From Caulobacteraceae bacterium (GTDB lineage: Bacteria; Pseudomonadota; Alphaproteobacteria; Caulobacterales; Caulobacteraceae), in contig CANGCO010000006.1 in NCBI GenBank assembly GCA_947452365.1, forward strand, positions 1-64,000: 64,000 nucleotides of DNA, given 5' to 3'. The notes below the pieces were generated by a model. That model had not been told where the DNA came from. It made no database searches and was given only the letters and a program-made list of their open reading frames with translations. The translations under genes were made by a program, and so were the position numbers. Below, one piece after another: positions 1 to 6,677 of the stretch; position 1 is the stretch's first letter, and each line of letters begins with the position of its first letter.

Positions 1-1907
1 CGCTGATAAAAAACTTGAGTGATACAAGTTATGCCACCGAATTCGTAAAGGCCATGTCTGACAATTTTAAAATTGAGGACAAGATAACGAGTGCCGATAG
101 ATCAAAAACATTCATTGTCGCCCTTCAAATAAACCGTATTTCTAAATATGTTATTGATAAATCAAACGGAAATTCAGACGTATACTTGCCCATCACTGAA
201 ACGCTATTTTTCTCAGACGTAACCACGGGAAAGATATTATATTCATACTCCGTTACTAATTATGCGTTAAAAACTGTTGCCAACTCCCAAGTTAACTCGG
301 CCGCTCTAAACAAAGAGCTTATATCAACTTCATTTACAGACGCGCTAAAGCGGTTAATAACTAAAGCATCCGCGAATTTCAATCCAACTCATCACAGCTA
401 TAAAATAATCGACAAGCAGTTGGGGTTCTATTTTATAGCCTCAGGGCTGAAGGACGGGCTTAAGCTGGGGGACGGACTCGAGGATGGTGATAATTCTCTG
501 AGCATTGTCTATGCCGGTGATGATTATGCGGTGGCGTCCAAGGTCGCAGGAGAAGTGGACCTATCCCATGCTTGGGCTTCGGTCTCGAACGACGGGTTGT
601 CGGGCCTAAATAGGCCCGTAGCTTATGTCTCAGCGAACATAAAGGGTGAAGGTGATTGCGAGACGTCTGTCGAGCCATTTGATCCCGCGAGCGCAAGGCA
701 ACAGTTTACCGATGCTATGGGCGATACTGGGCCGTTCTCAGTAGTGGCAATTTCTCCAGAATATGGCAAATTGATCAAGCATGTGATCTATGAAAATAGC
801 GGTTTCAACGACAAGTACATTGTCAAGAATACTGCGCTACCCGAATATTATGCCTTTCTCGACATAGAACGACCTGTGGTCATTCGGCTTGCGACCAACC
901 TATCTCATAAGCAAAAATTAAAGGTCGCTCAATCGGCCAGCCTGCGGGTGACCAATATTGAGGGTCGAGTCATCTATGCAGATACGGCCACGGAATCGAT
1001 TACAGATGAAGTCGTGGCCGGGATTGGTTTTGATCCTTCATCCCGTGCAGAAGTTGCCCTCAGAAATGTGTTCACAACGCTATCTGACCGGGCACGCAAA
1101 AATCTGAAATTCCAGAAGCTTCGTCTACAGGTAACCGCCGCTAAACCGGATAGTGTTTCAATCAATGACCCACTGGGTCAGTTGAACATCGATGATAGCG
1201 TTAACCTTCTCCACCTCATTTCTTCATCCAAAATGGCCGCTAAAACCCAGATTGTTGCGCCAATCTCAAAGGGCTCGGTCCAGGATCTGGTGGGGAATGC
1301 CGCGCAGGCTGTCTTACTTCCCGCCGAGGAGCCGGTGCCCGAGGTGCGGACGGCTGTGCGAAGCGGCGATGTCGCCGAACTTGATATGGCGGCAACGGTC
1401 GGTGGCGCCGTCAAGCGTCCCGTCAGCATTTGCGGGGGGCAGGCCGGCCTCGGCGCGATCGGTATTGATGGCCTCGACGAAATGGCACTCGCGGCCCTGA
1501 CCGCTGCCGGCATTAAGGGGATCCACAAGCGCGAGGAAACAAAGCAGGTCGTTGCGGCCCTAAATCTCGCCAGACCATACAAGTTCAGGGATGCCGAGCA
1601 AGCCGAGCCCGGCATCTGCATCATGCCCGTTTATAAGATTGATCCGATCGCATCCAATTGTGACAGCGCTCAGGTCTGCACCCAAACACTCAGTACCAAG
1701 GCCGGGTTTAGGCTCCTCAAAGGCGACACCATCGTCGCAAAAATGGCCTTTGACGGTAAGGTCTCCACCGAAGGTTATATGTCCTCCACACCGCCGGACG
1801 TGGTCGCAAAGCTCGTTTCATTGAATGCCCAGTCCAATATTTTCGAACTCCTGTCAGGCCTCGCCAAGGACAAGGAATTTCAATCCACGCTCAACAAAAC
1901 CCAGTAG
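1..1907 (+). CDS. large hypothetical protein, N-terminus beyond window edge; possible CsgG/curli-accessory-like N-terminal region
   Basis: Frame is open to the left edge (listed start TTG at 15 preceded by in-frame LIKN). First gene of a tightly spaced operon. The fold suggestion is weak. Confidence 0.6.
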   Translation, partial: LIKNLSDTSYATEFVKAMSDNFKIEDKITSADRSKTFIVALQINRISKYVIDKSNGNSDVYLPITETLFFSDVTTGKILYSYSVTNYALKTVANSQVNSAALNKELISTSFTDALKRLITKASANFNPTHHSYKIIDKQLGFYFIASGLKDGLKLGDGLEDGDNSLSIVYAGDDYAVASKVAGEVDLSHAWASVSNDGLSGLNRPVAYVSANIKGEGDCETSVEPFDPASARQQFTDAMGDTGPFSVVAISPEYGKLIKHVIYENSGFNDKYIVKNTALPEYYAFLDIERPVVIRLATNLSHKQKLKVAQSASLRVTNIEGRVIYADTATESITDEVVAGIGFDPSSRAEVALRNVFTTLSDRARKNLKFQKLRLQVTAAKPDSVSINDPLGQLNIDDSVNLLHLISSSKMAAKTQIVAPISKGSVQDLVGNAAQAVLLPAEEPVPEVRTAVRSGDVAELDMAATVGGAVKRPVSICGGQAGLGAIGIDGLDEMALAALTAAGIKGIHKREETKQVVAALNLARPYKFRDAEQAEPGICIMPVYKIDPIASNCDSAQVCTQTLSTKAGFRLLKGDTIVAKMAFDGKVSTEGYMSSTPPDVVAKLVSLNAQSNIFELLSGLAKDKEFQSTLNKTQ

Positions 1908-1917
1908 GAACAAAACC

Positions 1918-2616
1918 ATGAAAAAATTGATTTTGCCAATGGCGGCAATAGTTGGAATGACCGTCGCAACGGGCGCTCACGCCCAATTTGGTGGCATGCC
2001 AAAACTTGGCCTTCCAGGCATGCCGGGGGCATCTCAGTCCTCGAGCCCAGCCCCTGCGGTGGATATTGACACCTTTCTAGAGTCGGCCAACCTGGCCAAG
2101 AGCCTGGTCGAGGCCTCCGTCACACACATTGCCGCTGCCGTGGGTGCGAAAGAACAGGTCCAAGAAATCATGGACCGTCGCGAAGCCGCGAACAAGATAA
2201 CCAATCCTCAGGAAAAAGACGCGGCGCTGAAGAAGATCGCTAGCGATGAAATCGCGATCATTGGCGCTGCCGATGCCGATGCGGTCAGCAAAAAATTGGC
2301 GGCCGAAAAAAACCAAACCAAGGCGAAGGAACTCGGGGCCTCAATCTATAATCTGGTCTTGGGTCTGCTAAAAGATAAGGATGCTTTTGAACAGGGCCAA
2401 GCCCTTATTAAACAAATCCAATCCAATCCGATGAATGCCGCAAGAATGGCCCCTAAGATCGTTAGGCTTAAGGAAGTGCTTGGTTCAATTGGCAGCCAAA
2501 TTAGCGCTACCCCGACCCTACTAAAGAGCGCGAAGGCCTTGGCCACAGTCGCTAAGGTCGCAAAACTTCCAGCGAGCTCAAGTGAGGCTCCAAAAAAATC
2601 ATCCGACGCGCTTTAG
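1918..2616 (+). CDS. secreted alpha-helical hypothetical protein (paralog of 2958..3809)
   Basis: ATG at 1918 gives signal peptide MKKLILPMAAIVGMTVATGAHAQ; in frame with the longer ORF 1825..2616; 10 bp after the upstream stop. Confidence 0.8.
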   Translation: MKKLILPMAAIVGMTVATGAHAQFGGMPKLGLPGMPGASQSSSPAPAVDIDTFLESANLAKSLVEASVTHIAAAVGAKEQVQEIMDRREAANKITNPQEKDAALKKIASDEIAIIGAADADAVSKKLAAEKNQTKAKELGASIYNLVLGLLKDKDAFEQGQALIKQIQSNPMNAARMAPKIVRLKEVLGSIGSQISATPTLLKSAKALATVAKVAKLPASSSEAPKKSSDAL

Positions 2617-2627
2617 GAGCCGAAATT

Positions 2628-2891
2628 ATGAAAGCCAAACTATTTTTACTGGCGACAGTGCTATTATTGGGCCCGATCGCGTGTAGCAAAAAAGCAGATA
2701 GCGTCACGCCTCCTGCGCCCGTGCAGGCTGGTGCTGGAGATGTCTCGGTTTCAGTTCCGACCGAGGGGGCCCAGGATGCCATGAAGGCTGCCGGGGCGGC
2801 GACGGACGCGACGGTTACGCTTCAGGCGGATCCATCTGCGGACACTATGTCGGCGTCGACGACCTCACCCGCTAGCCCTGCTAAAAAGTAG
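2628..2891 (+). CDS. small putative lipoprotein
   Basis: MKAKLFLLATVLLLGPIAC-SKK: lipobox-like LGPIAC followed by an Ala/Thr-rich tail. Confidence 0.75.
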   Translation: MKAKLFLLATVLLLGPIACSKKADSVTPPAPVQAGAGDVSVSVPTEGAQDAMKAAGAATDATVTLQADPSADTMSASTTSPASPAKK

Positions 2892-2957
2892 GTCCTTAAG
2901 CCCAGGCCATGGCCGACTGGCTAAGGTCTGGGCTGTCTAGGGGAGGGCACTCTGTCG

Positions 2958-3809
2958 ATGAAACCATTCTCAGCGAGCAGTCTTTCACGAATTTGTGTCG
3001 GCGCCCTAGCGTGTTCGGTTATTGACACGGCAGCATTTGCACAAACTGTAGGGCGGGCATCCGGGGCCGGCCTTCACCGGAACTCAAGCGGCGGCTCTGA
3101 TCACGCCGCTATGGGGGACACGGGTCGCGCCGCGGATAAGGCTGATCGAAAAAATGAAGATGACGACAAGGCCCTTAGATCGCAGTTCCTCTCTGGCTTA
3201 CTAAAGAAGCCAGACAAGGCGCAAGCGGATGGCGTTGCAGACCAATTTAGTACCGATTTGGAAACTTTTTTTGCTTCAGCGCAATTGGCACAGGACTTGG
3301 TTGAATCCTCCGTTACGCATCTCTTTGCGGCGGTCGGTGAAAAGGAATTGGTACAGGTCATTCACGATCGCCGCGAAGCTGCCAATAGTATGGCTGAATC
3401 TAAAGAAAAAGACGCCGTATTAAAGAAAATCAAAGCAGATGAATTTGCAGCTTTAAATTCAATAAATGCCGACGAAACAGCTGATCGCTTAACTAAAGAG
3501 AAAAATAAAACGAAATTATCAGAAGTGAGAAATGGGCTATTTAATTTATCTCTCGGACTTCTGAAAGATAGGGATGTTTATGATCAGGGAAAAAATATAA
3601 TTAAACAAATAGAGGCCAATCCCATACAGGCTATGAAATTAATTTCTAAAATAGTAAAAATAAAGACAGCCGTATTATCAATTGGCTCCCAGATAAAAAG
3701 TACACCGACCTTGATAAGTAACATGCACAAGCTGGCAGTGGTCGCTAAGGTCAAGAACTTGCCGAAAACGGCAAGGGAGCGCCCCAAAAAATCCGCCATT
3801 GGCCTTTGA
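2958..3809 (+). CDS. secreted alpha-helical hypothetical protein (paralog of 1918..2616)
   Basis: Shares SVTHxxAAVGxKExVQxIxDRREAAN, EKDAxLKKIxxDE, LGLLKDxDxxxQGxxxIKQIxxNP and SIGSQIxxTPTL with the 1918 gene. Confidence 0.8.
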   Translation: MKPFSASSLSRICVGALACSVIDTAAFAQTVGRASGAGLHRNSSGGSDHAAMGDTGRAADKADRKNEDDDKALRSQFLSGLLKKPDKAQADGVADQFSTDLETFFASAQLAQDLVESSVTHLFAAVGEKELVQVIHDRREAANSMAESKEKDAVLKKIKADEFAALNSINADETADRLTKEKNKTKLSEVRNGLFNLSLGLLKDRDVYDQGKNIIKQIEANPIQAMKLISKIVKIKTAVLSIGSQIKSTPTLISNMHKLAVVAKVKNLPKTARERPKKSAIGL

Positions 3810-3871
3810 TGAAAATATTAACGCTAACTTCCCAATCTTTTTTGAGTTTCTGCTCATCTGGAGATAGTCTT

Positions 3872-4936
3872 ATGATCACTGACACATACGCTTCACGCGC
3901 CCTAACTAGTTTAGTCCTCCTCGGTTTAGCGTATGGATCAAATGTCACTATAGCTGAGGCGCAACCGCGTCCAATTGCCGTGGTTGTTATTATTGATGAC
4001 TATTACTCGGTCGGGGGCGCCGCAATAGTCGGGCAGTCCGACACCGTGGTTTCCGTTCGGAAAGGCTCGTCATTTTCTGATACCTCGACCGCGTCTTCCT
4101 ATGGCCGCTCAGCGTCATCGGGGTCTAGCCGAAATTCAGAGGCAGCCTATTCGGCAGGTGCCGCAAGCGCCCAAAGCAGCGGTAGTTATTCGGAATCCGT
4201 TCATGGAAGCGCACGCCAGTCTGGCTCTGCCGATTATGCTGCACAGGATGGATATGGAAACTCCGCTCGTGGTGGATATACGGGCAGTTCAAACGCGCGC
4301 CTATCGGCAAGACAAACGGGTCGGTCGACGGAGTCCGGATCGGCAGCCTATGCTCACGGCAGCGCGTCATCATCGTCCTCAGCCTATAGCGCCTCTTCGG
4401 CGTCAGGGAGCACGCGCAGAAACAATGTCCAATCCGAGACCCATGATAATTCCGATTACAAAAGTTCGGGCCAGGCCGTGGCGGTTTCGGCTCAAGGTGC
4501 CCGCGTGTTCCTCGGGAGTACCCTAGGGGCTAGCCAATTGTCAGCGCGTTTGAACTCATTGCAGATGTCCACCTATGAACCAGACCTCATTATCGGACCG
4601 ATTGGACCCAACGGAGAAATCGCCTCGAGCCTAGTGTCAAGCCCGGCATACCTTCAGGCTACCCTTGATCGCGCACGAGAGGCCTCCGTCGATAGGCTTG
4701 TCCTTGGGGCCAGTCGGGTTTCCGAGTTTTCAGGATCAAACGGGCAGATTTCCTGCTCCGGTAGCTTGTCGGTCCAGACCTATGATGTGCGCTCGCGGCG
4801 GTCCATAAAACAGGGAACCTATTTGGCGCGCGCAAATGGGCCCACGCCTGAAGCCTGCGCAGCGGCGGCTGCAACGCGCCTTGGCGACCTAGCGGGCGTC
4901 CAGGTCGGTGGCGAGATTCTAGCCGGGATGCGGTAA
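3872..4936 (+). CDS. secreted Ser/Gly/Ala/Tyr-rich low-complexity protein with folded C-terminal domain
   Basis: ATG 3872 gives signal peptide MITDTYASRALTSLVLLGLAYGSNVTIAEAQ; about 130-aa S/G/A/Y-rich segment, then an ordered domain. Confidence 0.7.
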   Translation: MITDTYASRALTSLVLLGLAYGSNVTIAEAQPRPIAVVVIIDDYYSVGGAAIVGQSDTVVSVRKGSSFSDTSTASSYGRSASSGSSRNSEAAYSAGAASAQSSGSYSESVHGSARQSGSADYAAQDGYGNSARGGYTGSSNARLSARQTGRSTESGSAAYAHGSASSSSSAYSASSASGSTRRNNVQSETHDNSDYKSSGQAVAVSAQGARVFLGSTLGASQLSARLNSLQMSTYEPDLIIGPIGPNGEIASSLVSSPAYLQATLDRAREASVDRLVLGASRVSEFSGSNGQISCSGSLSVQTYDVRSRRSIKQGTYLARANGPTPEACAAAAATRLGDLAGVQVGGEILAGMR

Positions 4937-4939
4937 GGC

Positions 4940-5281
4940 CCCGGTGATCGGACGCTTAATCGCCGCCTAGCCCGCGAGGGTGCCAAGATTATATTGTCGG
5001 ATGTGGCGCTCACCGATGAAATCTAAGCTCTGGCTACGGCGTTTCGGCATGTGGGCTATAATGTTGCGACCCGCGCTTGTGACGTAACCGATTATGCTCA
5101 GGTCCAGGCGCTGGGCCAGGCAAGCCTTTCCGAATACGCCGCCATGATCAGCCGCATCCCGATGGGCCGCGCAGGTCTGGCCGAGGACACGGCCAATGCT
5201 GTCGCCTTTTTATGCTCCGAGGGCGCGGGCTATATCACGGCGGGATCGGTGAATGTCTTAGGCGGTGAGGAGCCGCACTAG
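4940..5281 (+). pseudogene. decayed SDR-family dehydrogenase
   Basis: VIGRLIA / RLAREGAKIILSDVALTDEI*ALATAFRHVGYNVATRACDVTDY... then direct jump to the C-terminal SDR end GRAGLAEDTANAVAFLCSEGAGYITAGSVNVLGG. Frameshift near 4967, in-frame TAA, catalytic core missing. Confidence 0.75.
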
Positions 5282-6552
5282 ACCTTCCTAACCTTCGGCA
5301 AGGTTGCACCCAGCATGGCCAGCATTTCGGGGGCATAGGCTGCGCTATTGGCCTCGAACTCGGCCTGGGTAATCCGCTCAGTGCCTTGAGCGCCGAACAG
5401 TACAACCTCATCGCCTAGGCGCACGGTATCTTGAGCGCCTGTGACATCGACCATCATCGTATTCATGGTCACACGCCCGACGATCGGATAGCGCTGGCCA
5501 TCGATCAGGACCTGGCTGTGATTGTGGCCCTCGGCGGGGAATTCGGGGCGGTTGGCATGGCTAAAGCCGCGGCGTATGCCATCGGAATAGCCGATCGGAA
5601 TATTGGCCAGCCAGCTTTCGCGCGCCAGCCTAAAGGTTCGGTCATAGGCAACCGTCTGGCCCGCCGGATAGTGATTGACCGCAGCGATGCGCGACTTGAT
5701 GGCCATGGTCTGGATAAAGGCTGAGGTCTGGACCGAGCCAGGATCGCCATAAAGCGCGCCGCCGGTCCGCACCATGTCCAGCCGAGTTTGCGGGTGGATC
5801 AGGGTGGCAAAGGTATTGGCGGTGTGACGCACTAGGCCCTTTGTCTCCAGGCCCTGGCCCTGCAGCCAGGAAAGATCATCTTGATAGCGCTGGAGCTGAC
5901 CAAGAATATCGGCCGCCTTTTCGCTGGGATAATGCGTCATGGCCCCGGTGATCTTCAGGCCCGGCAGGGCCAGCATGGCGCGCGCGTCAGCCTTGCCATA
6001 ATCGGTCGAGAGCTCGACCCCATTGCGCGACATGCCACCAGAATTTAGGGCAAGATGAACCGGCAAGGCCCGGCCGGTCTTGCGCTTTTGGTAAAGGGTC
6101 TGAAGCCTTGCCGCCGCCTCTGGATTGCCGATCAGCTCGATAATCCCAAACCTAAAGCCGTCTTCCATTTCATCGGGTGTCGCGGTGCGGATACGATAGA
6201 GGCGGCCGCGATAGCCCAGTTGCCGCGCCACCCGTGCCTCGTCATTGGAGGTGATGGCGACATCGCCAACCTGCTTGGCAAGGATGGAGGGGATGAGCAG
6301 GGCAATGCCATTGCCATAGGCATCGGCCTTCATCACGGCGCAGAGCCTGGTCATGCCAATTATGGCATGAACCGCATCAATATTGGCCTCGAAAGCGGCG
6401 GTATCAATCTCGATCCAGCCATTGCGTCGCACAGCCTTGGCATGGGTAAGGCCAAAATTATTGGCCGAGAGCACAGGCGCGGCGACGGCCTTTGCCGTCG
6501 CAAGGCCCAGGGCGCCGGCCCCTGCTGCCAGAAATGCGCGCCGCTGGATCAT
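5278..6552 (-). CDS. alanine/broad-specificity amino-acid racemase with N-terminal export signal
   Basis: PLP motif VMKADAYGNG, C-terminal VGRVTMNTMMVDVT; start at 6552 gives MIQRRAFLAAGAGALGLATAKAVAAP (RR-type signal). Confidence 0.85.
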   Translation of the reverse strand: MIQRRAFLAAGAGALGLATAKAVAAPVLSANNFGLTHAKAVRRNGWIEIDTAAFEANIDAVHAIIGMTRLCAVMKADAYGNGIALLIPSILAKQVGDVAITSNDEARVARQLGYRGRLYRIRTATPDEMEDGFRFGIIELIGNPEAAARLQTLYQKRKTGRALPVHLALNSGGMSRNGVELSTDYGKADARAMLALPGLKITGAMTHYPSEKAADILGQLQRYQDDLSWLQGQGLETKGLVRHTANTFATLIHPQTRLDMVRTGGALYGDPGSVQTSAFIQTMAIKSRIAAVNHYPAGQTVAYDRTFRLARESWLANIPIGYSDGIRRGFSHANRPEFPAEGHNHSQVLIDGQRYPIVGRVTMNTMMVDVTGAQDTVRLGDEVVLFGAQGTERITQAEFEANSAAYAPEMLAMLGATLPKVRKV

Positions 6553-6677
6553 GACTTGCCCCGTTCGAGAATGGGCTGGGTTATGCCCCAGCGCGGCCAG
6601 GCCTGAGCTTACGGGACCTAGATTGAGATGAGAACCCTGTTCATGTTTGGTCACGGCCATTCTGGCCATGACCATGG

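Follow-up and report, generated by a model that had tools for sequence, protein, structure and literature searches.

Which envelope system is encoded by the run of closely spaced genes that opens the stretch of Caulobacteraceae DNA analysed here (64,000 nucleotides, in the following called the window)? A preliminary description had placed five genes of an uncharacterised envelope operon at positions 1–4936, the first of them truncated at the edge. Reading of the open reading frames confirmed five genes on the + strand, at 3–1907 (open at the edge), 1918–2616, 2628–2891, 2958–3809 and 3872–4936, and the reading as a conserved, uncharacterised envelope operon is supported, while the limitation to five genes could not be upheld. 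Window position 1 is the first base of contig C6 in a genome of 133 contigs and 2.59 Mb, and a comparison of the edge protein, B, with its own genome revealed a second partial copy, 99% identical, located right where contig C54 ends. The terminal 553 bases of this contig (C54:16411–16963, L005) correspond to window 1–553 with 11 mismatches and no gaps. Since such an end-to-end overlap at 98% identity is a typical assembler outcome where strain variants meet, C54 is most likely the upstream continuation of the operon. The same overlap suggests that the population sequenced contained strain variants and that the assembly was interrupted within gene B. C54 supplies the true start of gene B at C54:16227, so that its first 61 codons (C54:16227–16410) precede the part in window 1–1907 (+), and additionally carries an upstream gene A (C54:14501–16153, 550 aa), separated from B by 73 bases. 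The full gene order is therefore most likely A-B-C-D-E-F, to the extent that the join deduced from the overlap holds.

Downstream of B, which is a secreted protein, gene C (1918–2616, +) encodes a helical protein of 232 aa that is secreted and whose conserved C-terminal tail resembles LPxSxSExPK, and gene E (2958–3809, +; 283 aa) is a lineage-specific second copy of it. The two are 47–49% identical, in line with the paralogy assigned to them from the outset. Between them lies gene D (2628–2891, +), the lipoprotein announced by the preliminary description, of 87 aa and with a lipoprotein signal terminating in Cys, MKAKLFLLATVLLLGPIAC. The last gene, F (3872–4936, +), is a shortened second copy of A, which retains a PIxVxxD-like strand, a Ser/Ala/Gly-rich linker and a CsgG/PelC-like domain while being devoid of the FlgT_N-like and C-terminal domains of A. 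Its earlier characterisation as a secreted low-complexity protein is correct as regards the Ser/Ala/Gly-rich stretch; the signal peptide preceding that stretch is present if translation starts at the ATG at 3872. Since trees join E to C and F to A, each within its own genome, duplication of A and C in this lineage probably gave rise to F and E, with the exact place of F less certain owing to its long branch. The right border is formed by a broken remnant (4960–5281, +) of an SDR gene, incomplete and interrupted by an internal stop; the gene is intact in the same-genus genome G004 (L073:2796–3602). Adjacent to it, at 5278–6675 (−), lies a gene for an alanine-racemase-like enzyme with an apparent secretion signal, probably a periplasmic racemase. 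Of six same-genus genomes only one, G004, yielded a close homologue, which is 90% identical and has two internal stops.

Absence of conserved synteny had been named as an observation that would refute the preliminary description. We found synteny to be strongly conserved, with A-B-C in fixed order at 32 other loci in alpha-, beta- and gammaproteobacteria and with homologues of B, C and A/F recurring in the order seen in the window. Plasmid records hold A-B-C in this order in Cupriavidus, Caballeronia, Psychrobacter and Novosphingobium, and the B alignment, run against about 85,000 species genomes, yielded 19 further loci, all with A-B-C, in Cupriavidus and other Burkholderiaceae, Caballeronia, Acinetobacter and Psychrobacter. 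Closer to home the genes are rare: B occurs in 9 of 299 genomes of the family (3%, own genome included), the other eight of which all carry A-B-C; single-sequence searches with A, B and C gave no match in 59 relatives from the same genus, family and order; and a phylum-wide draw of 399 genomes returned, besides the own genome, a single very weak match. Between A, B and C, pairwise distances correlate at 0.98–0.99, and dN/dS for close pairs lies mostly at 0.03–0.2, with extremes of 0.025 and 0.35. Because homologues recur in order and dN/dS of A, B and C is mostly this low, the genes are real, and A-B-C is a co-inherited unit under purifying selection. Two plasmid or genome copies (L010, L018) carry frameshifts.

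This unit has moved horizontally, as is evident from copies on plasmids and at many differing chromosomal sites and from its presence in only 3% of family genomes. The B protein of an Acinetobacter copy is 88% identical to that of a Psychrobacter plasmid, and in the own genome the segment has a GC content of about 52% compared to about 60% on both sides. Upstream of A, at about 13,880–14,290 of C54, we located an apparent transposase remnant, consisting of the helix-turn-helix part and IS481-like by eye. A search of viral contigs and phage records for the cassette gave no match. Among the individual surroundings, a Caballeronia plasmid copy is followed by TerD, TerY and DUF475 genes of tellurite-resistance type (L008:15172–19497) and preceded by a site-specific integrase, and at another locus (L044:1452–2731) a CsgG-like gene and a small lipoprotein gene, both named by eye, lie about 4 kb from A-B-C on the opposite strand.

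Searches by sequence left the proteins without a family: profiles from Pfam, NCBIfam, PADLOC and PDB sequences contained none covering A, B or C, with PADLOC giving only weak coiled-coil-type matches to C, and with a weak match to an MreC barrel in B. Matches to TagH, PrgJ, DUF4191, antibody heavy chains and eIF3a, despite their small E-values, look like products of coiled-coil or Ser-rich composition and were discarded. For structural comparison, AlphaFold2 models were built on 19-sequence alignments, with the Caballeronia concitans protein representing A (mean pLDDT 57, folded parts mostly 70–85) and the window protein representing B (mean pLDDT 70). In Foldseek searches the flagellar protein FlgT took the top rank for A (3w1e, 2.4e-7) and the top two ranks for B (8z5n, 1.1e-11; 3w1e, 1.1e-10), followed by HpaA, CsgG (4uv2 for B), PelC, GNA1162, Lpp20 and LptE. 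The models thus relate A and B to the fold of FlgT, CsgG and PelC, with FlgT closest and CsgG and PelC next, a likeness that holds at domain level, with moderate model confidence and low whole-chain TM-scores. This bears on the first and last proteins, in which CsgG-type segments had been suspected: the fold is indeed predicted for B and for the A/F family, but FlgT is nearer than CsgG, and no sequence match to CsgG accompanies it. Since profile comparison of A with B detected no homology between them, their common fold is a matter of structure.

From the model, A (about 490–563 aa) reads as an FlgT_N-like domain, a short beta segment, a Ser/Ala/Gly/Tyr-rich linker, a CsgG/PelC-like domain and a C-terminal alpha/beta domain; the linker, a secreted low-complexity segment, is found in every copy of A. 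B (about 660–690 aa, with repeated domains) reads, from the secondary structure of its model, as three domains resembling CsgG and the middle domain of FlgT, between which SH3-like barrels are placed. A profile built from four FlgT proteins aligns to the N-terminus of A and, over 107 columns spanning the junction of the FlgT middle and C domains, to the first domain pair of B, in both cases weakly (E about 6e-4) but collinearly. The FlgT_N family model gave no match above the Pfam gathering score, with 3 of 19 A members matching at a best E of 0.015, and no match in the own genome.

A further component may be a small lipoprotein, L. Most betaproteobacterial and many alphaproteobacterial copies have a lipobox open reading frame of 71–183 aa before A, at a spacing ranging from an overlap of 3 bases to a distance of 26 bases upstream, while Acinetobacter, Psychrobacter and a few alphaproteobacterial copies yielded none next to A. 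A TPR-like middle is present in some of these proteins and missing in others, with weak TPR-type matches in both of the two that were tested, and most of them finish with two AGDxS-like motifs, e.g. KAGDASVETSDSGTVVRAGDVSVS. In the own genome D may be the counterpart of this lipoprotein, as it shares the 7-mer AGDVSVS with the proteins encoded before A, which occurred in 0.12% of shuffles; local alignment of D with these proteins was no better than with shuffles.

We propose a model in which the mobile accessory cassette (L)-A-B-C encodes a periplasmic ring tethered to the outer membrane, part of neither curli nor a flagellum, and we give this reading, derived from the fold, a chance slightly short of even. 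The body of the ring would be formed by B with its three CsgG/FlgT-like domains and intervening barrels, to which A would contribute one more such domain and its FlgT_N-like domain, while the disordered linker of A, roughly 100–150 residues long, could line or plug the lumen. Because A and B carry ordinary signal peptides, we propose that L, possibly D in the own genome, tethers the ring to the outer membrane, and that C would serve as its client or cap. The most likely use of such an assembly would be that of a platform gating or assembling something at the outer membrane. In favour of the model, A-B-C is inherited in order, with strongly correlated distances and under purifying selection, a lipoprotein gene directly precedes A in many copies, plasmids and varied sites carry the cassette, and the FlgT profile aligns to both A and B. 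In addition, the leading structural matches, FlgT followed by CsgG and PelC, are ring-formers of the envelope: FlgT is part of the H-ring of Vibrio flagella (PMC6504787, PMC7693769), and PelC assembles into a twelve-membered periplasmic ring at the outer membrane (PMC12141448). Against the model, the structures are of moderate confidence with low whole-chain scores, the ring is proposed here from models of single chains, and the same Foldseek list includes non-pore proteins of this fold, such as LptE and HpaA. Moreover, the cassette encodes no outer-membrane barrel, and the gammaproteobacterial copies showed no lipoprotein gene beside A.

These non-pore relatives lead to an unlikely alternative, in which A and B act as a periplasmic factor without forming a ring, aiding the trafficking of lipoproteins or lipopolysaccharide or activating a cell-wall synthase in the manner of LpoB. 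The membership of LptE, HpaA and GNA1162 in the fold group and the weak MreC-barrel match in B are consistent with such a role, but FlgT heads the structural matches of both proteins, and repeated domains within one chain favour a large assembly. The fibre, matrix or secretion apparatus put forward in the preliminary description, restated as a CsgG-like exporter (B/A) with C/E or the low-complexity part of A/F as the secreted material from which a surface fibre or matrix is built, we consider rather improbable. CsgG-fold domains in A and B and the low-complexity segment secreted with every A would fit it; however, this segment is an internal linker joining folded domains rather than a repeat protein of its own, the sequence searches gave no match to CsgG, and inspection of the cassette showed neither curlin repeats nor CsgE or CsgF. 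PF03783, the CsgG family, occurs at only two loci of the own genome, both outside the operon. One is a genuine curli locus with CsgG at C5:44006–44647 (L050, 2.1e-52) and curlin-like and CsgF-like genes named by eye, so that true curli genes reside elsewhere, and the apparatus is not supported as originally stated. The second CsgG-family gene (C40:11730–12365, L051) lies in an apparent holdfast-anchor locus of HfaA/HfaB type, again named by eye and suggestive of a host from the Caulobacterales.

More doubtful still is an envelope-level protection, in which the complex, conceived as a tethered FlgT/CsgG-fold ring with its linkers as barrier or gate, would block the entry of phage DNA or of other incoming agents and travel across Proteobacteria in defence islands. 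The patchy, mobile distribution agrees with this, as do the neighbours at six loci with strong PADLOC matches: type I restriction genes adjoin L024, L026, L027 and L047, PDC-S26 adjoins L024 and L044, and ThsA together with a type IIG enzyme adjoins L045. Three HsdR-bearing contexts exceed expectation at about 1–2 HsdR per genome (P about 0.0005–0.006; 0.017 at 3 per genome), but this enrichment is modest, the neighbours were picked by eye, and accessory islands gather restriction genes anyway. Furthermore, A, B and C match no PADLOC family, and several Acinetobacter copies adjoin housekeeping genes (der). A protective role is therefore possible but weakly supported, and we regard it as a lead rather than a finding. 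Finally, the rank of FlgT as top match for both A and B would also suit an accessory flagellar-motor ring built from a divergent FlgT/FlgO/FlgP set. However, FlgT_N is weak at the Pfam level, its model finds nothing in the own genome, and inspection by eye of the flanks of the examined loci revealed no flagellar genes. Acinetobacter and Psychrobacter are non-flagellate genera, and since the cassette occurs in both, this explanation is nearly excluded.

The outer-membrane-tethered ring thus remains our preferred reading. A, B and C are named in no Pfam, NCBIfam or PADLOC model, yet form a conserved unit across three proteobacterial classes, and their function is directly testable through plasmid-borne copies and through those of culturable Acinetobacter, Psychrobacter and Cupriavidus. 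If the ring forms, parts of FlgT type exist outside flagella; our literature search returned nothing on an FlgT-like system outside flagella, nor on a CsgG-like protein in defence islands. Among known systems, CsgG, the curli exporter and an outer-membrane pore of nine-fold symmetry, shares the core fold with A and B but is itself a lipoprotein, while in most copies the signal peptides of A and B are of the ordinary type. PelC, the ring of Pel polysaccharide export, has the same fold as the single domain in A and F, whereas A and B are multi-domain proteins, and no PelB-type porin or polysaccharide genes were recognised with the cassette. The nearest likeness is to FlgT (3w1e, 8z5n; Pfam FlgT_N/M/C), seen in the FlgT_N-like start of A and in the middle-plus-SH3-like unit of B. 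In contrast to A, which stays below the Pfam cut-off for FlgT_N, FlgT has no long disordered linker, and while FlgT is one N-M-C chain of about 380 aa, the corresponding domains are here split over two larger proteins and multiplied.
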